From contig NZ_NEGZ01000030.1 in assembly GCF_002127585.1 (NCBI RefSeq), positions 1-64,000 of the forward strand: 64,000 nt of DNA. Direction: 5' to 3'. The notes under the pieces were generated by a model, which made no database searches, was not told where the DNA came from, and saw only the letters and a list, made by a program, of their open reading frames with translations. The stretch comes from Janthinobacterium sp. GW458P (GTDB taxonomy: Bacteria; Pseudomonadota; Gammaproteobacteria; Burkholderiales; Burkholderiaceae_D). Both the position numbers and the translations under genes were made by a program. This document shows, piece by piece, positions 13,291 to 44,995 of the stretch. The number at the start of each line of letters is the position of its first letter. Within the stretch, counting starts at the first letter, position 1.

Positions 13291-15288
13291 TTAATAATTA
13301 GCCGGCGACGCCTGCGGCATCAGCTCGATGTGCGTCACGATTTCAGTTGTTCCCTGCACCCGCATGCGCCAGGCGGCGCTGGCAATCGGTGATTTCTCGT
13401 CGAAGCGGCGCGATATCCAGCCGCCAGGCGGTGTATCGCTGCCGCGCAATATTTCCGGTGTTCCATGCGAACAGCGCATGCGCAGGCCGGAATGCCGGCC
13501 CTGTGCCTGCAATTGTCCGTCATGGACGGTGACGAGGCACTGCTCTCCGAACTGCCAATGCACGGAAATATCATGTACATTTGTACATTGTAATATGTCT
13601 TTTACAACAATGCATTTATTATTAAAGTTGAATTCGATACGACGCCGGTGCAGCACGGGATCGGCCAGGCGGCTGTAGCCATCGTGTTCGCCCTCAAAAA
13701 CTTGCACTTCAGAATTCGTATCATGGGCAATCATGCGCGCATTGGCTTTTTTCAGCCACATGAAATTGCCGCCGATTTCAGACTGGTCCAGGCCGTCGAC
13801 GGCCACCGTGTTATGCGCGGGCGTGCTGCGGAAATAGTCGCGCCATTTTTTTTGCGTGTGATAGGCGTAGGTGCCTGGATCGGTGAGCAGCTCTTCGCCG
13901 CCGACGGAGAGGGTAAAGGCCAGCGCGTCGGCATGTCCATGCGCGGCAATGGACAGGTAGCCCAACGGTGCGCAATCGGCCACCAGGCGCACTTCGTCGG
14001 CCGTGCCAAACTGGCTGCCAAGCAAAAAGTAGCCGCCTTCCGGAAACGCCATCACGGGCGCCTCCGGCAAGCCGCCATCAAGCGCCTGCCACTGTTGCAA
14101 GCCCGCCACACCAAACAGCCAGCGGTTCTTGTCATCAAAATGGCCAGCCTTGCGCTTGAAGTCGGCGCGGTCAAACAGCACGGCGCAGCTGGCCAGCAGC
14201 GAACGGTAGCGATGCCAGCCGTCCTCGTGCGCCAGGCGTACCATCTGCGCATCGTCGGCATCGCCCGTCATCGGCACGTTGCCATCCACGTCCATCAGCG
14301 CGGCGATGAAGCCGGCCAGGCGCTCCAGGCGCTGCAAGTACGCCGCGGAAAAGCCCGTGCCATTGGCCTGCGCTATCATCTGGCACAGCAGCATCATGTC
14401 CATTACTTCATGCTGGTAATAGACGGCTTGCTCGCGGTTCACGCCATCGGGCGTATTTTGCTTGAGCGCCTCCTCTTCCAGCCCCTTGCGCGCCAGCGCC
14501 TGCCATTTTCCACTTTCCGGCCAGCAAGGCCAGACCAGGCTGGCCACGAACAAGCCCATGTATTCGCCGAACAGATGATTGTTCGCCGACGAATGACGCG
14601 AAAAATAACCGGCGATAAAGTGCGCATGCTGATAGATCGCGGCAAGCCACTGTTGCAGGAAGCGCTGCCCCGCCTCGCCCTGGAACAGCGGCGACGCCAG
14701 CCCTCCCAGCAATTCCCAGGCGCAAGCCCAGTTCAGCAGGCGCAGCGCCAGCTCAAGCGAACTGGTCCAGTGCACGCCCATGGGATACGGGCATTGCCCG
14801 AACCATGATTGCAGCAGGGTACGCGCGCCGTCGGCGTAGCGCTGCTCGCCCGTCACTTTCCATGCCTGCGCCAGCGCCACCAGTTCCAGGTGCCGGTTCG
14901 GTTCCCACAGATACTTGATATCGCCCACTACTTTTTCACTGCGATAATCGATCTGCTTGCCCAGCGTCAGCGGCGCCACGGTACCCGTCTTCGGGTCGCG
15001 GTTCCATTGCGGCGGGAAACCCAGTTCCGCGCCACGCAGGGCAAAGATGTTCCAGCGGCCCGCCAGCACGGCGTCGGCAGCCCCGCGCAGGGCGGCGATA
15101 TCGGTATCATGCCCGTTGCCAGCCAGAAAGGACCGTCCCGTGCGAGACAGGTCAGGCGCGGGCACGCTGCGCAGCAAACCGATGCCCAACTTGCTGGCCT
15201 TCTTTTGCAGCAACTGTTGCACGCGCCAGGCGATCTCCGGCGCCCCCATCAATTTCAAGCGGTTGATTTTCCAGGCCAATGATGTCAT
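13291..15288 (-). CDS. Heparinase II/III family protein (alginate lyase-like), no signal peptide
   Basis: A 665-residue protein with an alpha-toroid N-terminal half (about 100-330) and a heparinase II/III-like beta domain (about 350-640). Recognised elements include SSANNHLFGEYMGLFVASL, YYQHEVMDM, IAAHGHADALAFTLSVGG and LTDPGTYAYH, with AHNTVAVDGLDQSE. Enzymes of this fold cleave uronate-containing polysaccharides by beta-elimination; the HGHAD segment and nearby Tyr are the likely active-site residues. The N-terminus lacks a signal peptide, so it may act on lipid-linked or mis-exported chains in the cytoplasm, or be a non-lytic member. It overlaps the upstream glycosyltransferase by 4 bases (ATGA) and lies 11 bases before algD, whose product makes such a uronate. 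Confidence 0.87.
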   Translation of the reverse strand: MTSLAWKINRLKLMGAPEIAWRVQQLLQKKASKLGIGLLRSVPAPDLSRTGRSFLAGNGHDTDIAALRGAADAVLAGRWNIFALRGAELGFPPQWNRDPKTGTVAPLTLGKQIDYRSEKVVGDIKYLWEPNRHLELVALAQAWKVTGEQRYADGARTLLQSWFGQCPYPMGVHWTSSLELALRLLNWACAWELLGGLASPLFQGEAGQRFLQQWLAAIYQHAHFIAGYFSRHSSANNHLFGEYMGLFVASLVWPCWPESGKWQALARKGLEEEALKQNTPDGVNREQAVYYQHEVMDMMLLCQMIAQANGTGFSAAYLQRLERLAGFIAALMDVDGNVPMTGDADDAQMVRLAHEDGWHRYRSLLASCAVLFDRADFKRKAGHFDDKNRWLFGVAGLQQWQALDGGLPEAPVMAFPEGGYFLLGSQFGTADEVRLVADCAPLGYLSIAAHGHADALAFTLSVGGEELLTDPGTYAYHTQKKWRDYFRSTPAHNTVAVDGLDQSEIGGNFMWLKKANARMIAHDTNSEVQVFEGEHDGYSRLADPVLHRRRIEFNFNNKCIVVKDILQCTNVHDISVHWQFGEQCLVTVHDGQLQAQGRHSGLRMRCSHGTPEILRGSDTPPGGWISRRFDEKSPIASAAWRMRVQGTTEIVTHIELMPQASPANY

Positions 15289-20384: not shown

Positions 20385-22643
20385 TCAGTTCGGAATAAAG
20401 ATCGCCTGAGCTCCGACCATCAACTGTTTACCAGTGCTAGTGGTGGTTAGAGTAGTCTTCGGACGCTTGCAGCCGACATCGAGCAAAACAATGAATTCGC
20501 CAGTCTGCGCAACACTCGTTTTCACAAATGCACCATGATCCTCGGTTTTACCCGGGGCCGGCGGCGGCCCCGAGCGCGGTTGGTAGCTATTGGCCTCGCC
20601 GCCCAAGGAAGTAATGCAAAGGGTGCGATCTACTTTGGTAATCTTCACGGCGGTTGCACTCTCCGTGGCGATCGGTCCAGCCGCATGCAGATTCCATTCG
20701 AAGGACAGGGCGGTGGGCGCCGAGAGCCGGTCCACCACCACCACCGCATCCTGACCGCGCAAGTACCATACCTTGCGCACTGCCGAAGTCAACGCGCCAC
20801 CGTAAGCGGGTGTCGCGTCACCGGCCGCATAATCCAAGGTCGGAGTCGTAGAAAATGCCGTGATCTTGCCATTCCGGCTCAGGTTATTGGAGTTATCGTT
20901 GATTAACTGACCTACGCCATTATTGAACGTGATGGCATTATGCGATTTAGTCTGGCGGTACCACGACATTACCAGTGGCGAATAGTAATAATCCTCATAA
21001 CCGGACTCAATCAACAAACGGCGCCCGCCACTATCGATCACCAGTGCGTTCTGATCGCCATGACCATGATTATACGAACCATAGGGACTGGATTTGAAAT
21101 AGACGGAGGTACGGGCACGATCCGCCAAATTACTATGCATGGCGACCCAACCGATAGTCGGATACAAGGCGGCATTGGGGGGCGGCACGGGTGTCTCGGT
21201 TACCGTTTCAACAGGCAGAGGATAAGGCGCCTGAAACAAAGTCAGATCAGCCTCGTCGCCAACGATATTCTTGACATACCAGGCTGCCTGAGGCGTCTTG
21301 AAGCGCGATGAAAAGCCTTTCAACACAAAATTATAGATATCCCCCTCATGCTGATCGCCAAATACCTGTCCTGGCGCACCTGGCGGCAGGAAGTGCATCA
21401 AATAACGCGCAAAGCCATTGCTCCACGGCTTGGTGAAGATATTCACGCCAGTCGCTTCAGCCATCGGCTGCCATAACTGCAGGGCATACTCCGTATTAAA
21501 CATCGCATAGGAGGTACCGTTGGCGTAGCCGCCTTCGGGACCGCTCCAGACATACACCGCATTGACATAGGAGCGGAAAGAAAAATCAAACCAGGTAGCA
21601 GCGGCAGGGATATCACCCATCGTGAGCGTGGAAATCACCGCCAGATAGCCGAGCGCTATCACGCCGTGAGCATCAAAGGGGGTTTGATCTAACCTGTAAT
21701 TGTCTTTGATGAGGTCAGCATACATGGGAGTGACCCGCGCACTAATGGCCGCCATCCAGAGTGCTTTGCGCTGCGGATCCTTGCTCAACTCGACCGACAG
21801 CAAGTCCGAGCACTTAGCCAACGTCAACATGATGCTGCGTGTCGCCATATCATGATTGACATAGCTGGTCATGCCCTCAGGATCAAGTGCTGCCAACTGG
21901 TTGCCACGTGTCAGTGCTTCCTGCAGATACCTGTTCTCACCTGTAAGCCGGTACAGTAGTGTCGCGCCCAACATTTGATTGGTTGCACTGCCTATGGCTT
22001 GAGAAATCTGGGTGATATACGCCGTGCGCGCTGCCGACGGCGTACTTGACGTCAATGGCCAAAGCGAATCCGATGGCGCGGCCAGCGGGTAGGCTCCACC
22101 CGGCATGAGACTGGTAACCTGGGCCGTAAGACGAGTCAGGGCAGCACCGCGCGCCGTGCGGATGGCCGGAGTCCAGGCACTCAAGGGCAGAAAATCCGCG
22201 CGTTGCTGGCGAGGACGAGGATGGGCCAGAATTTTGCTCTTGATTGACTCGTTGTCGGGTACTTCAAACGTTTGTGACGCACTATCAATCGTAAAGGTAC
22301 GCGGCGTCGACCAATCGGTACTGGTACTGGGACGCACGCGCCAACTGTACTGGCCCGCGCTGAATGCCGTTGTCGGCAGATAAAAGGTGCGCTTACTCGT
22401 GTAAGTGGCAAACACGACACCACTCTTTTGAACCTCAACAACATAGGACGGCGGCGCCACGCTGCCCGGGTATTGTGCCCACGAAAAGGCAGGCGGGTTT
22501 TGCGCCTGCGCCTGCCGGTCGACCGGGGCCGGCCGGACAATGAATACCTCTTTCGACTCGGCCCAATCAGCCTGACTGGATCCAGCCAGCATACTCATCG
22601 CCAGCCCCAGAGCAACAGAAAAAAGTGACTTATTATTAACCAT
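20385..22643 (-). CDS. Secreted heparinase II/III family polysaccharide lyase
   Basis: A 752-residue exported protein with a signal peptide (ALGLAMSMLAGSSQA). An N-terminal beta-sandwich of the DUF4962/heparinase II N-terminal type (FSWAQYPG, YSWRVRPS) at about 40-120 is followed by an alpha-toroid (about 140-480) and a heparinase-like beta domain with YGSYNHGHGDQNALVIDSGG, ESGYEDYY and KSHNAITFNNG. The HGHGD and Tyr residues are the likely catalytic centre for beta-elimination on uronate polymers. Being exported, it fits trimming or release of the polymer made by this locus. SD AGGAG lies seven bases before the ATG. It forms a single-gene unit: a terminator follows, and a sigma-54-like element lies about 130 bases upstream. 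Confidence 0.9.
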   Translation of the reverse strand: MVNNKSLFSVALGLAMSMLAGSSQADWAESKEVFIVRPAPVDRQAQAQNPPAFSWAQYPGSVAPPSYVVEVQKSGVVFATYTSKRTFYLPTTAFSAGQYSWRVRPSTSTDWSTPRTFTIDSASQTFEVPDNESIKSKILAHPRPRQQRADFLPLSAWTPAIRTARGAALTRLTAQVTSLMPGGAYPLAAPSDSLWPLTSSTPSAARTAYITQISQAIGSATNQMLGATLLYRLTGENRYLQEALTRGNQLAALDPEGMTSYVNHDMATRSIMLTLAKCSDLLSVELSKDPQRKALWMAAISARVTPMYADLIKDNYRLDQTPFDAHGVIALGYLAVISTLTMGDIPAAATWFDFSFRSYVNAVYVWSGPEGGYANGTSYAMFNTEYALQLWQPMAEATGVNIFTKPWSNGFARYLMHFLPPGAPGQVFGDQHEGDIYNFVLKGFSSRFKTPQAAWYVKNIVGDEADLTLFQAPYPLPVETVTETPVPPPNAALYPTIGWVAMHSNLADRARTSVYFKSSPYGSYNHGHGDQNALVIDSGGRRLLIESGYEDYYYSPLVMSWYRQTKSHNAITFNNGVGQLINDNSNNLSRNGKITAFSTTPTLDYAAGDATPAYGGALTSAVRKVWYLRGQDAVVVVDRLSAPTALSFEWNLHAAGPIATESATAVKITKVDRTLCITSLGGEANSYQPRSGPPPAPGKTEDHGAFVKTSVAQTGEFIVLLDVGCKRPKTTLTTTSTGKQLMVGAQAIFIPN

Positions 22644-29389: not shown

Positions 29390-30073
29390 TCAGTGCGAGG
29401 TACCCGAAAAATGCCTGCGCAAGTCCGGGGGCATGGATTGCAACAACTGATCTATAAATGCTTGCTGCAGTTGATAACCTTGTTCGACATCCTCACCGAT
29501 ACTCGACACACGCATCAAGGTCGCATCCGGAATCATGCCCTGCAATGCATAAGCCAGTTTGACTTTCTTGACTTCCCACGAACTCGGTACTGCCTTGTCG
29601 CCAACGACAACCCAATATGTAATGGGTTCGACACGGGAATTGAGCGTCGCCACTGTCCGCGACGTCGCAATGCTCCCGCCGACCGTCGGCAAGTCCACCT
29701 GGCTGGTTTGAGCGACCGCAAAGCCCTGGCCGCCATAACAACCTTCTGGAAAATGTACGGACAAGTTATCGCGTTGGTCGGTGCCATAGGCAATTGACAA
29801 CATGATGCGATTGCCTTGCCGATTAACATAAGTGCGCGACAACGTTTCAGCGTAGATTTTATTGAGTTCTGCTACGGTGGTGGGATTGACGACTGCGGCA
29901 ACCTGACTTGCATCTTCCTGCCAATCGCCAAACTTCGTTGGAATCGCCGTGCTGAGGACGATTTTCGGGCGAGTATCGGACAGACGCAATGTCGGCGTGA
30001 CGGCCTTGGTGCATAAGGCGGCGACCAGCATCAGCCCGCCCATGGTCAAACCAATCATCGAACTCTTCTTCAT
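29390..30073 (-). CDS. epsI: Exosortase-associated protein EpsI (B type)
   Basis: A 227-residue protein with one N-terminal membrane helix (residues 6-24) and a periplasmic EpsI domain. The family site is present as HFPEGCYGGQGFAV with Cys112, followed by WVVVGDK and a C-terminal helix-rich part. In some exosortases EpsI is fused to the C-terminus; here it is separate and encoded directly after XrtB with a 4-base overlap (ATGA). It is thought to work with the exosortase or in EPS assembly; the exact step is not known. The stop is followed by 118 bases before the polymerase gene. Confidence 0.9.
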   Translation of the reverse strand: MKKSSMIGLTMGGLMLVAALCTKAVTPTLRLSDTRPKIVLSTAIPTKFGDWQEDASQVAAVVNPTTVAELNKIYAETLSRTYVNRQGNRIMLSIAYGTDQRDNLSVHFPEGCYGGQGFAVAQTSQVDLPTVGGSIATSRTVATLNSRVEPITYWVVVGDKAVPSSWEVKKVKLAYALQGMIPDATLMRVSSIGEDVEQGYQLQQAFIDQLLQSMPPDLRRHFSGTSH

Positions 30074-30966
30074 GATGCCACCTTTCGGGCGTGCCACAGC
30101 CGCGCTAACCATTGCAGTAAAGAATCAAGGCTCAATATCAGCACCAGGGCGCTCACGAACAGCACCATGCCCGCGAAACCATGCAGGAAACCCTGCCCTG
30201 CCGCATCGCCAAAATAATAAGTAATCAACGTCAATGCGACGACGCGCATCACATTGGCCGTAAAGGAAATAGGGATAATCAGGATCGCCAGGCCGATATT
30301 GCGGATAGCCGAGGTGTGACGCACCAGGTTCAGGTAGAACAGCCCCAGGGCTTCGAGCGTGAGCAAGGTTTGCAACCCTGCGCAAGCATCGGCAACCAAA
30401 AGCTGATACTGGCCGATTTGCAGGATCACACCCGTACGCGCTATCGGATAGCCGGCCCAAAACAGAATATGCTCGCACACATACGAAACGGCCATCTTCA
30501 TCGGCAACGTCAGGGTACTGACGACCGAACTAGGTAGCGGGATCATGAACAACATGAAAAAGAACGGGAACCAGGCGGCGCGTAGCGCGCCCACTCCCAG
30601 CTTGAGCACCAGGATGGCGGCCGTGAGCATGACGAATGAGCCAATCTCGAAGGCAAGAATCTGCTGCGAGCGACCGGCAATATAAACCAGCAGCGCGGCG
30701 ACAAAAATCAGCCAGCCAGCTACCGGCGCACGGTCATGCTCGGCAGCCGCCAATATCTGCTCGCGCTGGCGCCATATGAGCCAGACCGAGAGTACCAGGA
30801 TAATGGGGCCGTGCGCCTGCTCTTCGGTCATCCAGATACCAGTAAACAAGGTATAAAATGACGGGATATACAGCACCGCGAAACCAATGACGATAGGCAG
30901 CCATTCCAGCAACTGGTCGCGCCGAGGCAGGGCAGACGCCAGGTTCAGCCGAGTGCTGGTATTCAT
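30070..30966 (-). CDS. xrtB: Exosortase B
   Basis: A 298-residue integral membrane transpeptidase-like enzyme with about eight helices. The catalytic triad of exosortases is visible: Cys195 in ADACAGLQTLL, Arg241 in TANVMRVVAL and His262 in FLHGFAGMV. It recognises PEP-CTERM tails, cleaves near the PEP motif and probably attaches the protein to a surface or extracellular polymer. Substrates in this window are the genes at 577, 4674, 6623, 7288 and 44249. The subtype is inferred from its partners: EpsI, EpsL and the CAAX-like protein of the XrtB group. It overlaps epsG by one base and epsI by four, in a tight operon. Confidence 0.95.
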   Translation of the reverse strand: MNTSTRLNLASALPRRDQLLEWLPIVIGFAVLYIPSFYTLFTGIWMTEEQAHGPIILVLSVWLIWRQREQILAAAEHDRAPVAGWLIFVAALLVYIAGRSQQILAFEIGSFVMLTAAILVLKLGVGALRAAWFPFFFMLFMIPLPSSVVSTLTLPMKMAVSYVCEHILFWAGYPIARTGVILQIGQYQLLVADACAGLQTLLTLEALGLFYLNLVRHTSAIRNIGLAILIIPISFTANVMRVVALTLITYYFGDAAGQGFLHGFAGMVLFVSALVLILSLDSLLQWLARLWHARKVAS

Positions 30967-31838
30967 CAGAAATCGACCAGTACCGAGCCGACCACCTGCG
31001 CACCGCTGTGCAGCATCTGCTCGGTCATGGCGTTGATGTCGCCGACAGGCGTGTGGTTCTTGCGCGCCACCAGCAGGACGCCGCCCGTGCGTGCCGCCAG
31101 GGCCAGCGCATCGGATCCCAGCGAAAATGCAGCCGAGTCGTACAGCACCACGTCATACGACGACTCAAGTTCCGTGCGCAGGGCAGAGAACGCGGGGCGG
31201 CTCAACAGCTCCTGGGGATTCGGCGGCAGGGTGCCGGCGCCCAGCACGGACAAGTCAACGAACGATTCGATGCGCGTGATCACATCGCGCTCGGCACGTC
31301 CGGCCAGGATATCCGACAGGCCCTGGCGCCCGGCAAGGCCGAAGATCTCATGCTGGCTGGGGTTGCGCAGATTCGCATCGACCAGCAAAGTCTGTTCGCC
31401 CAGCTGGGAAAACACGACGGCCAGATTGGCCGCGAACAGGCTGGTGCCGTCACCATCGTTGACGCCCACAACCACCAGCGACTTGCGGCCCAGCGCCATC
31501 CAGCGCAGCATCAGCTGGCTGCGGATGGCGCGCAGCGTTTCCACCTGCGGGCTGAACGGCTGATAAGCGGCGATCAGCTTGTCGGAATACTTGCCCTCCC
31601 CCTGCTGCAGATAGGGATAGTCAAACTGGCGCGCCAGGACTTGCTGGATATCCGCCTCCGTCACCAGACCCAGGCGCTGGGCAGCTTCGCCGAAACGGAT
31701 ACCCAGTTCCTTTTGCATGCGCAGGACACGTTCGGCACTTTCCGGCGTAATCTTGCCGGATGCGAGCAAAAGCCCGCCGATGCTGGAATCGGCGGTCCGC
31801 GGCGCCGCGGAAATTAGCGGTTGCAATGCTGGATTCAT
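30966..31838 (-). CDS. epsG: EpsG, chain-length determinant tyrosine-kinase-like protein with degenerate ATP site
   Basis: A 290-residue protein. Residues 20-42 and 48-71 form two repeats like the N-terminal domain of type II secretion ATPases (RFGEAAQRLGLVTEADIQQV). A BY-kinase-like domain follows. Its Walker A is GVNDGDGTS (125-133): the Lys of GEGKS is Thr132. The A' motif reads LLVDANLR instead of DADLR and the Walker B region is VVLYDSAAF. The usual C-terminal Tyr cluster is missing; the protein ends at GSVLVDF. It is therefore probably not an active kinase but a partner of EpsF in chain-length control. The tandem N-terminal motif is the type that binds cyclic di-GMP in MshE, so it may be a sensor (inference). 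It overlaps xrtB by one base. Confidence 0.9.
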   Translation of the reverse strand: MNPALQPLISAAPRTADSSIGGLLLASGKITPESAERVLRMQKELGIRFGEAAQRLGLVTEADIQQVLARQFDYPYLQQGEGKYSDKLIAAYQPFSPQVETLRAIRSQLMLRWMALGRKSLVVVGVNDGDGTSLFAANLAVVFSQLGEQTLLVDANLRNPSQHEIFGLAGRQGLSDILAGRAERDVITRIESFVDLSVLGAGTLPPNPQELLSRPAFSALRTELESSYDVVLYDSAAFSLGSDALALAARTGGVLLVARKNHTPVGDINAMTEQMLHSGAQVVGSVLVDF

Positions 31839-31852
31839 ATTATTTCCAATAC

Positions 31853-33262
31853 TTAATTAAGACGCAAGCTGCGGGGCAACAACGATTTGAAGCGGTTCAA
31901 GCGCGGGCGCGTTGGCGCACTCCAGTCGATCGAGCCGAGTACAGGCAACTGCAACAAATCGCTCAAATCGGTTTCTGAACGTACGCGACGGTCCAGCATC
32001 TCGGCAAGCAAGGAAAAACCCACGCCCAGCAAGCCGCCCAGAAACAGGGCCAACAGCGTGTTCAACATCACTTTCGGGCCGGCTGGCTTGATCGGCGCCA
32101 CGGCAGGATTGAGCAGGGAGATATCCGATTGCTCCGATTGTCCCTCGATACGCGTTTGCGAGAAGCGTTGCGAGGCGATATCGAAGGCGCGCTGCGCGCT
32201 CTCCACATCCTTTTGCAGTACGCCCATTTCGTCGCGGGTGCGGTTCAATTCCAGAACCTTGTCCTTTTGCGCCGCCAGCGCCGCGCGCACGGCGCCTTCA
32301 CGCTGTTGCAGGATACCGGCATTCTTGCTCACCGAACTCGACGTCACGCGCGTGCCGTCCGCCAATTCCCGGCGCATGCGCTCGACTTCGGCGTTCAGGC
32401 TTTCATATTGCGGATGGTTGCGCCCCAGGCGCTGCGCCATCTCGGCCAGCTTCGATTCGGCCGTTGCCAGGCTTAGCTTCAGATTCTGCACCAATGGATT
32501 CGACGCCACGTCCGGCGACTCGGAGCCGGCATTGCCTTCGGCCATACGCTGGCGCGAAGAAGCCTCCATCGCCTGACCTTGCGCCGCTACCAGCTGCGCC
32601 GACAGGTCATTCAAGCGGTTCGACTCGACGTCCAGACGGTTGTCGACGCTGACGATGCCGTGCTCTTGCTGGTACTTCGACAAACGGCTTTGCGCCACCT
32701 CAAGGTTGTCGCGCAACAATTTCGTTTGGTCATTGAAATATACGGCGACCTTTTTCAAAGGATCGACTTTCAACTGGATGCTGGTACGCTGGTACTCCTC
32801 GGCAAAAGCATTTGCAATCGCCGCGACAAACTGCGGATCATTGCCCTTGAAACTGATATCGACCACGCTGCTTTCGCGCGACGGCACGATTTCCAGTTTG
32901 GCCAGCAACAGGTCCGCCAGCCAGTCGCGCACGGTCCCCTTGCCTCCCGTGGCTTCGTTGAACTGCGCAACGACAGCCGCGCTATCCGCCAGCTTCAAAT
33001 TATCAACGACCTTCAGCGCCACATTTTTGCTGCTGATGATATCGATTTGCGTTGCCATATAGCCTGGCAACAACTGCATCGGCAATGCCAGGCCCGTGAC
33101 GGGATCGACGCCCTTGTAGTTGATCAGGAGGGATGCCGTGCCTTTATACGTCTTGGGCAACAGCAGGCTCACCACCATCGTCGCCCCGACCGTGATGAGC
33201 AAAGTGAATAGTAAAATCCGTTTGCGGGCAAGCAAGACGAGCAGAAACTGGTGGAAATTCAT
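31853..33262 (-). CDS. epsF: EpsF, chain-length determinant (Wzz-type) protein
   Basis: A 469-residue inner-membrane polysaccharide co-polymerase. One helix lies at residues 16-36 and a second near 405-425 (LNTLLALFLGGLLGVGFSLL); between them is a long periplasmic coiled-coil part (about 170-370) rich in Gln, Glu and Arg. The N-terminal Wzz domain shows YKGTASLLINYKG and ITSSK-like DIISSKNVA. It sets chain length together with EpsG encoded 14 bases downstream. The short cytoplasmic C-terminus (VLGSIDWSAPTRPRL) lacks a kinase domain, as expected for the two-protein system. ATG at 33262 follows GAGAG. Confidence 0.92.
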   Translation of the reverse strand: MNFHQFLLVLLARKRILLFTLLITVGATMVVSLLLPKTYKGTASLLINYKGVDPVTGLALPMQLLPGYMATQIDIISSKNVALKVVDNLKLADSAAVVAQFNEATGGKGTVRDWLADLLLAKLEIVPSRESSVVDISFKGNDPQFVAAIANAFAEEYQRTSIQLKVDPLKKVAVYFNDQTKLLRDNLEVAQSRLSKYQQEHGIVSVDNRLDVESNRLNDLSAQLVAAQGQAMEASSRQRMAEGNAGSESPDVASNPLVQNLKLSLATAESKLAEMAQRLGRNHPQYESLNAEVERMRRELADGTRVTSSSVSKNAGILQQREGAVRAALAAQKDKVLELNRTRDEMGVLQKDVESAQRAFDIASQRFSQTRIEGQSEQSDISLLNPAVAPIKPAGPKVMLNTLLALFLGGLLGVGFSLLAEMLDRRVRSETDLSDLLQLPVLGSIDWSAPTRPRLNRFKSLLPRSLRLN

Positions 33263-33321
33263 GGTCAACTCTCATATTAATAAACAAAGCCAGCCTGGTC
33301 ATAGCGCCGGAACTACTCAGC

Positions 33322-34110
33322 TTAGAACAAACTTTCTTTGACATACACGACGTCATCCACCTGAATGATGTCGTCATGCTTGGCGTCGAGTATTTGCATG
33401 ACACCTGCCGCATCGCGGCGCTTGATGCGCACGCCACGTTCGGTACCGCGCTGCGTCAAACCACCGCCAACAGACAGGGCCTGCAGCACCGTCATCGAGC
33501 GTTCCAGGCGAAATGCCCCAGGACGCTGTACTTCGCCGTAAATGTAAAACCGCGGTGCGCGTTCGACGTACAGCACATCGTTGCCGCTCAGGTCAAAGTC
33601 GCGGGCCAGATCGGCGCTGCGCATCATGTCGACGATGTCGATGGTTTCCTTGGTCGTGGTACCGTTGCGCTTGCGAATCAGGCTGACCACATCGCCCCCG
33701 TCCGCGCCTTGACCACCAGCCATGGCCAGGATGTCGAGCAAGCTGCGCTTGCCTTCAATCGGATACCGTCCAGGACGGTTCACCTGGCCCAGTACGGATA
33801 CTTGCTGACTCTGCAAGGCAGTAACGATGATATTGACCTGTGCCTTGCGCAGAAAGCCACCGCTCTCCAGGGCCTGGCCCAGCTTCTTTTCTGCCGCGGC
33901 AACAGACATACCGCCCACGGCAACGCTGCCTACCAGCGGAAAGGTAATGCTGCCAGCCTCGCTGACACGCGTTTCCAAACCCAGGTCAGGACTGCCATAC
34001 ACGGAAATTTTCAATACATCGCCAGCGCCGAGCAACACTTCGGCGGCCCCAGCCACACCAACACTGCAAGCCATCAGTACGGCGGCTGCCCACATCGCAA
34101 GTCGTTTCAT
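33322..34110 (-). CDS. epsE: EpsE, outer-membrane polysaccharide export protein (Wza-like)
   Basis: A 262-residue protein with signal peptide (about 1-22, ending GVAGAA). The Poly_export domain begins VLLGAGDVLKISVYGSPDL and includes ITFPLVGSVAVGGMS; two SLBB domains follow (VSVLGQVNRPGRYPI, FYIYGEVQRPGAFRLE). No lipobox Cys is present. It would form the periplasmic/outer-membrane channel through which the polymer leaves. It lacks the long C-terminal helix of E. coli Wza; the outer-membrane barrel may be provided by EpsL. It lies 56 bases after epsD and 59 before epsF. Confidence 0.93.
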   Translation of the reverse strand: MKRLAMWAAAVLMACSVGVAGAAEVLLGAGDVLKISVYGSPDLGLETRVSEAGSITFPLVGSVAVGGMSVAAAEKKLGQALESGGFLRKAQVNIIVTALQSQQVSVLGQVNRPGRYPIEGKRSLLDILAMAGGQGADGGDVVSLIRKRNGTTTKETIDIVDMMRSADLARDFDLSGNDVLYVERAPRFYIYGEVQRPGAFRLERSMTVLQALSVGGGLTQRGTERGVRIKRRDAAGVMQILDAKHDDIIQVDDVVYVKESLF

Positions 34111-44248: not shown

Positions 44249-44995
44249 TCATTTAGCATCCTGCACATTGCCAGCCGCGCACTTGCCGCGGCGGCGCGCC
44301 ACTATCAGCAGCAATCCCGCCATGAGCATGCCAAACGTTCCCGGCTCGGGCACGGCGCTGATCGTAAATACCTGAATCGCGCCAAAGGTCACGTCGTTGG
44401 CATGCCAGGTGGAGCCATCGAGCAAACTGACGCCGGTCGATGGCAGCCCACGATAGTTATAGGTATACAGGAAAGAACTGCCGCCATGCGTGAGGTCTTG
44501 CGGCACATACAAATCGTGCCCGTAGCCGAATGTAGGGCCGTAATCGGGCTGGTTGTAGGTCTGGTCCTTGCCGATACCGTCCCCGTTGAAATACTGCTTC
44601 AGTTGCGGCAGCATGAAGCCGGCCGTCAGATTGAACAGGAAAGCCGTGCGCTGGCTGTCGTCCATGGTGACATGCGTGCCATCGGTGGAACTCCAGCTTT
44701 GCGGATTGTAGCCGCCCACCAGCCACGTCTTGCCCGATGAATTCGTGGCCTCCATGACGGAAAACGTGCGCCCCTTGCCATCGGAGGCCTTGTGAAAATC
44801 GAGCGCAGTGTCGCTCGCCGCCTTGCTGTAAATATTCGTCAGCGCCAGGCGGCCTTCGCCAAGCCAGGTTTCCAACTGCGCCTGATAAGCAGGAGACAGC
44901 AGCGTCGAGCCGGAGGCCGCCTGCGCTCCCATGCAAAAAAACAGGCCGGCTGACGCCAGCGCCAGACTACTTGCTACTCTGAATTTGTTTTGCAT
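44249..44995 (-). CDS. PEP-CTERM protein with TLDc-like domain
   Basis: A 248-residue exported protein: signal peptide at 1-26 (ending GAQA), then a domain over about residues 35-210 that follows the TLDc pattern: a Ser-x-Asp-like DTALDFHKASDGKGRTF, WLVGGYNPQSWSS, RTAFLFNL, GPTFGYGHDLYV and FGAIQVFTI. The C-terminus has VPEPGTFGMLMAGLLLIV, RRR and an unusually long polar tail of 14 residues. TLDc is best known from eukaryotic OXR1-type proteins; its bacterial role is unclear. The start is supported by GAGGTAAGG. A single-gene unit; the upstream 124 bases are AT-rich and contain likely -10 hexamers such as TTATAT. Confidence 0.83.
   Translation of the reverse strand: MQNKFRVASSLALASAGLFFCMGAQAASGSTLLSPAYQAQLETWLGEGRLALTNIYSKAASDTALDFHKASDGKGRTFSVMEATNSSGKTWLVGGYNPQSWSSTDGTHVTMDDSQRTAFLFNLTAGFMLPQLKQYFNGDGIGKDQTYNQPDYGPTFGYGHDLYVPQDLTHGGSSFLYTYNYRGLPSTGVSLLDGSTWHANDVTFGAIQVFTISAVPEPGTFGMLMAGLLLIVARRRGKCAAGNVQDAK

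Follow-up and report, generated by a model that had tools for sequence, protein, structure and literature searches.

Among the BY-kinases that act with polysaccharide co-polymerases, Wzc provides the classical case: phosphorylation of its tyrosine tail dismantles the octamer, and its Lys540Met (K540M) mutant, described as kinase-inactive, still forms it. BY pseudokinases were described in 2025, namely EcpK from Myxococcus xanthus and HfsB from Caulobacter, with earlier hints cited in the same work (PMC12004946). Although dead as a BY-kinase, EcpK is required for exopolysaccharide (EPS) synthesis through a direct interaction with its partner co-polymerase, for which cycles of binding and unbinding without phosphorylation were proposed (PMC12004946); the text of that paper mentions neither MshEN nor c-di-GMP. 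The MshEN domain, in turn, consists of a pair of 24-residue motifs joined by five linker residues (PMC5013675), and known fusions attach it to glycosyltransferases and other domains. Below, we describe a protein that appears to bring these two themes together.

The window (the whole 64,000-nucleotide stretch of Janthinobacterium sp. GW458P DNA that was analysed) contains epsG as a 290-aa ORF on the minus strand, running from 31838 to 30966. The first-pass annotation had located it at 30966-31838, where the ORF is indeed present, and we have corrected its orientation to the minus strand. An NCBIfam profile search recovered a full-length match to the EpsG model TIGR03029 (357.5 bits against a cut-off of 313.8, residues 17-288), and the AlphaFold2 model of the protein, with its predicted MshEN-type and BY-kinase-like domains (mean pLDDT 91.6, pTM 0.83), has CapB and Wzc as its top structure matches. 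Its closest named relatives are from Oxalobacteraceae (Pseudoduganella, Janthinobacterium, Rugamonas and Massilia), with about 70-76% identity.

The gene lies inside a single operon with the order epsE-F-G-xrtB-epsI, all on the minus strand. Of these, epsE (33322..34110; TIGR03028, 338 bits) codes for an outer-membrane polysaccharide export protein, xrtB (30070..30966; TIGR03113, 402 bits) for exosortase B, with a start that overlaps the epsG stop, and epsI (29390..30112; NF045609, 269 bits) for a B-type exosortase-associated protein. EpsL, an undecaprenyl-phosphate glucose phosphotransferase and EpsD are also encoded on this strand, and the region as a whole is an XrtB/PEP-CTERM exopolysaccharide locus. 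Directly upstream of epsG, with 14 bases in between, is epsF (31853..33268; TIGR03017, 638 bits), which codes for a co-polymerase of 471 aa, the presumed partner of EpsG; above the Pfam cut-off it shows solely the Wzz and GNVR domains and no kinase domain. The two genes adjoin each other in 79 of 80 named loci. The EPS locus further features a gene with a Pfam match to heparinase II/III-type lyases (13291-15288, minus strand), and the product of 20385-22643 (minus strand) looks, judged by eye only, like a second polysaccharide lyase. Outside the eps operon, 44249-44995 (minus strand) codes for a secreted protein that ends, again by eye, in the PEP-CTERM-like tail VPEPGTFGMLMAGLLLIVARRR and is a likely exosortase substrate.

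Residues 83-287 of EpsG align with CapB, Wzc and Etk, and these alignments, together with family conservation, reveal a kinase half that retains parts of the nucleotide-binding site and lacks others. In the degenerate Walker A motif (GVNDGDGTS, residues 125-133, 31440..31466, minus strand), Thr132 (codon 31443-31445) occupies the position of the lysine in both CapB and Wzc, just as the first-pass annotation had read it. That reading had also called the Walker A' and B motifs altered. This is borne out for A' (TLLVDANLR, residues 150-158, 31365..31391, minus strand), where the DxD signature has become Asp154-Ala-Asn156, with the first Asp kept and the second replaced by Asn; the B region (VVLYDSA, residues 230-236, 31131..31151, minus strand) is altered only in part, with Asp234 kept and SAA standing where TPP is expected, such that the Asp-x2-Pro signature is gone. 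The C-terminus ends in GSVLVDF and has no tyrosine cluster, as had been noted earlier. The EX2RX2R motif, which is the ring-contact motif of BY-kinases, is recognizable by family conservation as E100/R103/R106 (residues 100-106, 31521..31541, minus strand).

We then compared 188 distinct EpsG proteins, among which the Walker A lysine is retained in just five, with Arg in 70 and other residues in 113 (R 70, A 54, T 17, V 16, C 10, S 7, N 5, K 5 and a few others). The lysine loss, whose generality in Oxalobacteraceae had been raised as a question, is thus wider still and extends to the whole EpsG family: members from other families of the phylum share it, with the Methylobacillus-type protein from locus L214 showing a Cys/Asn combination at the Lys and second A' Asp positions. 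The second A' Asp is replaced by Asn in 108 of the 188. Considered jointly, the two positions fall into Arg/Asp (66), Lys/Asp (5) and other/Asn (104) pairs with 13 exceptions, meaning that the Asp is lost in 104 of the 113 proteins with a non-basic residue at the Lys position. On the tree these losses provide one usable independent pair on supported branches, and we accordingly claim no significance for their coupling. A Tyr-rich tail is missing from all 188, with a maximum of two tyrosines from residue 275 onward, whereas the ring motif is kept almost throughout (E100 in 184/188, R103 and R106 in 187/188 each).

The five lysine-bearing versions (L099-L103) constitute a single clade, likewise without a Tyr cluster, which arises on a long stem from within the Arg group; an alternative tree that unites all Lys-less EpsGs in one clade, as a single loss of the lysine would have it, is not rejected (p-AU 0.166). 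The lysine-bearing EpsG paralogues of this small clade (L241:8859-9818, minus strand; L242; L243) carry an RLG-type MshEN motif I. At the L241 locus the family search matched EpsE, EpsF and EpsG and did not match exosortase B, and tblastn found no XrtB in L242 or L243. Several EpsG paralogues may be present in one genome, with three each in G054 and G096 and four in G586; the full-length extra copies fetched from G054 and G096 are also devoid of the Walker lysine.

The same genome codes for an XrtA-associated BY-kinase (locus L002, G000:C156:4518-5141, plus strand) whose motifs are all intact, namely GEGKT, DAD, DSPP and a Tyr-rich tail, and 30 of its relatives in the family likewise possess the Walker lysine, an A' motif of DAD or similar sequence, DSPP and a tail rich in tyrosine. 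The intact state of this kinase and its relatives rules out a lineage-wide drift of BY-kinases and indicates that the EpsG losses reflect neither a habit of the lineage nor a fault in the sequence. Sequencing error or local decay of epsG can equally be dismissed, because the lysine loss is family-wide and the gene as a whole shows a dN/dS of 0.13-0.27. As a side observation, no LMW tyrosine phosphatase (PF01451) was found in the whole genome despite this apparently active BY-kinase; a PHP-type phosphatase may substitute for it.

N-terminal to the kinase half, residues 19-71 display a 24+5+24 layout formed by S19-Q42, the linker KELGI and R48-Q71. Motif I (residues 19-42, 31713..31784, minus strand), delineated by the NCBI curated c-di-GMP-domain model NF053729, the alignment to MshE (5HTL) and the published layout (PMC5013675), reads SIGGLLLASGKITPESAERVLRMQ, with Ser19 at the position of MshE Arg9 and Ala35 at that of Leu25 (position 17). 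Motif II (residues 48-71, 31626..31697, minus strand), delineated by NF053729 and conservation, features Arg48, Phe49, Gly50 and Gln71. The first-pass annotation had proposed two copies of an RxG-type pattern across residues 20-71: the tandem region holds up, while the RxG signature itself is confined to the second copy (R48-Q71), the first having Ser19 in its place. Correspondingly, the Arg, Lys or Leu typical of the first motif position is present in motif II and absent from motif I.

Multiple lines of evidence support the relationship of this region to MshEN. NF053729 detects EpsG residues 20-71 with 42.5 bits against a cut-off of 38 and matches all 60 of 60 aligned EpsG relatives with an E-value of 0.001 or better. 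A profile of 45 EpsG N-termini recovers MshE (5HTL) without gaps (E = 8.7e-10) and PilF (E = 6.1e-17), and none of 20,000 protein shuffles reaches the observed motif score. Together, the model score, the profile match and the shuffles rule out a chance occurrence of the motif. Pfam does not recognize the N-terminal domain in any EpsG member scanned. Modeling of the N-terminus with AlphaFold2 (mean pLDDT 75, above 85 in the helices) predicts a four-helix bundle (20-26, 32-45, 49-55 and 61-71). The 13 top-ranked PDB structures for this model are without exception MshE or PilF GSPII domains, with weak E-values as the chain is short; the model superimposes on c-di-GMP-bound MshE (5HTL) at 0.8 Å over 52 residues, also with a weak E-value. 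The MshEN Gly and Gln residues are present in both motifs (G21, G28, Q42, G50, G57 and Q71), and among the 188 EpsGs conservation is pronounced at G21 (187), Q42 (177), R48 (166), F49 (183), G50 (188), L68 (179) and Q71 (187). In close relatives, the MshEN part evolves with a dN/dS of 0.02-0.08 (NG86, six pairs, the seventh being saturated), as against 0.16-0.31 for the kinase part (NG86, seven pairs). Purifying selection thus acts more strongly on the MshEN half than on the kinase half. In the genome we count 57 GGDEF matches and no more than three to MshEN, one of which is EpsG itself.

These features make c-di-GMP sensing by EpsG plausible: the predicted fold, the exact spacing, both Gly and both Gln residues are in place, and Arg48 is correctly positioned and conserved. 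At the same time, Ser19 and Ala35, both common changes among the 188 EpsGs, raise real doubts about the predicted binding, for the MshE residues at these positions stack on guanine. Only 19 of the 188 have R, K or L at the Arg9-equivalent position, and MshEN relatives that do not bind exist. These points favor a rival reading, a BY pseudokinase scaffold whose MshEN-type domain has lost c-di-GMP binding and serves solely as a helical module for protein binding, as do Xanthomonas XpsE and PilF GSPII-A. The strong constraint on the MshEN half could then stem from protein contacts instead. Further, in a weakly binding construct (19 uM) derived from PilF GSPII-A, Ser at the matching motif II position abolished binding (PMC12002112). 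However, the arginine is not essential, since PilF GSPII-B, in which Lys and Leu replace the two arginines, binds c-di-GMP at 6 nM. EpsG also differs from the non-binding examples: the equivalents of Gly11, Gly40, Gln32 and Gln61 are near-invariant in EpsG, while several are missing from XpsE and, in GSPII-A, the two Gln are replaced by His and Arg and the second Gly by Ala. All ten core features that we scored are kept in 147 of 188 EpsGs. Finally, the near-invariant Phe49 occupies the position of MshE Leu39, which shares its guanine contact with residues 9 and 25 of that protein, and we conjecture that it may make up for Ser19 and Ala35. On balance, we regard a non-binding module as rather unlikely and consider that EpsG probably binds c-di-GMP or a related cyclic dinucleotide.

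The kinase half, too, admits more than one reading. Its family name and overall BY-kinase fold would suit an ordinary tyrosine autokinase, but the Walker lysine, the A' DxD, the DxxP and the Tyr cluster, all of which are present in the relative from the same genome, are all absent here, and a Lys-to-Met change in Wzc is itself described as kinase-inactive; such an activity is therefore highly improbable. Some nucleotide binding is nevertheless possible because 173-187 of the 188 EpsGs retain Asp154, Asp234, Gly131 and Ser133. One could accordingly envisage an ATPase-like switch that binds ATP without phosphorylating, with the nucleotide tolerated by the Thr, Ala or Arg that stands in for the Lys, and with ATP and c-di-GMP jointly controlling the ring. 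The 70 members with Arg at this position would fit such a switch, as would the weak matches of 34 out of 60 members to a Lys-to-Arg variant ATPase model. Yet the clade of the present EpsG combines a small or polar residue at the Lys position with Asn for the second A' Asp, and its kinase half is less constrained than its MshEN half, leaving this option quite doubtful. For the earlier suggestion of a signal-binding pseudokinase, the pseudokinase half is well supported, given the family-wide loss of the Lys, the loss of the A' Asp and the intact control kinase, and the c-di-GMP half is plausible.

We somewhat favor, therefore, the view of EpsG as a BY pseudokinase that, independently of phosphorylation, serves EpsF as a scaffold and is gated by a cyclic dinucleotide. 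Such a protein would have lost autophosphorylation while keeping the BY-kinase fold and its ring-forming surface, to which an N-terminal MshEN-type cyclic-dinucleotide-binding domain would be added. Most likely, it would sit on the cytoplasmic base of the kinase-less EpsF, by analogy with CapB on CapA and EcpK on EpsV, and would stabilize or free the EpsF oligomer that governs Wzy polymerization and EpsE-mediated export. Where Wzc relies on a phosphorylation cycle, EpsG would instead take up and let go of c-di-GMP through its MshEN domain; in the simplest scheme, the ligand would toggle the EpsG ring between holding EpsF together and releasing it. The family-wide catalytic loss, the ring motif, most of the MshEN contacts, the folds and the adjacency of epsF are read from sequence or prediction; that EpsG contacts EpsF, forms rings and binds c-di-GMP, and in which direction it exerts control, is what we infer. 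The coupling of c-di-GMP to EPS chain length, also proposed in the first-pass annotation, is suggested by the pairing of EpsG with EpsF. More tentatively, and with less than even confidence, we extend this to the EpsG family at large as c-di-GMP-gated co-polymerase regulators of a Wzx/Wzy-type pathway, wherein the second messenger supplants the tyrosine-phosphorylation cycle and, acting on the MshEN ring of a dead kinase, would set EpsF oligomerization and directly EPS chain length.

If this is true, biofilm signaling would be tied to polymer chain length within one protein. As the parts for phosphate transfer are lost and the c-di-GMP-type sensor domain is well kept, these bacteria may rely on a signal molecule, and not on phosphorylation, to control the length and export of their slime polymer. 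The work on EcpK raised the question of how a BY pseudokinase drives co-polymerase cycles without phosphorylation (PMC12004946), and EpsG suggests a possible answer in the form of a built-in c-di-GMP-type sensor. In the titles, abstracts and passages of the open-licence literature that we searched, we found no report of a fusion between MshEN and the BY-kinase fold, although NCBI's two models jointly imply it.

Among known systems, the model TIGR03029, named "chain length determinant protein tyrosine kinase EpsG", already spans the N-terminal domain, but the kinase function in its name is unsupported by the residues of nearly all its members. The family, annotated as tyrosine kinases, is almost wholly kinase-dead by these residues, and thus both the database name and phosphotyrosine models based on EpsG are probably wrong. 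With CapB, Wzc and Etk, EpsG shares its fold, its sequence over residues 83-287, the EX2RX2R motif and a partner co-polymerase, being split from it in the manner of CapA/CapB; it differs from them in the loss of the active-site Lys and the second A' Asp, in the absence of the Tyr tail and in the additional MshEN-type domain. With the MshEN domains of MshE, PilB/PilF and NfrB, it shares the pair of 24-residue motifs, the five-residue linker, the predicted four-helix bundle, both Gly, both Gln and the motif II Arg. In contrast to these, Ser replaces Arg and Ala replaces Leu in its motif I, Phe stands for Leu39, the MshEN C-terminal subdomain is missing, and the domain is joined to a dead BY-kinase rather than to a traffic ATPase or a glycosyltransferase. 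EcpK and HfsB are, like EpsG, stand-alone BY-kinase folds that lack working Walker motifs and a Tyr tail, and their partner in the Wzx/Wzy-type EPS pathway is a PCP-2 co-polymerase devoid of a kinase domain. More of the P-loop survives in EpsG than in these two (Gly131, Ser133, Asp154 and Asp234), and its parts appear to match the EcpK scheme, with a kinase-less partner, the EX2RX2R motif and no expected catalysis. The pseudokinase thus has its precedent of 2025, to which EpsG adds the fusion to MshEN as a putative sensor domain.
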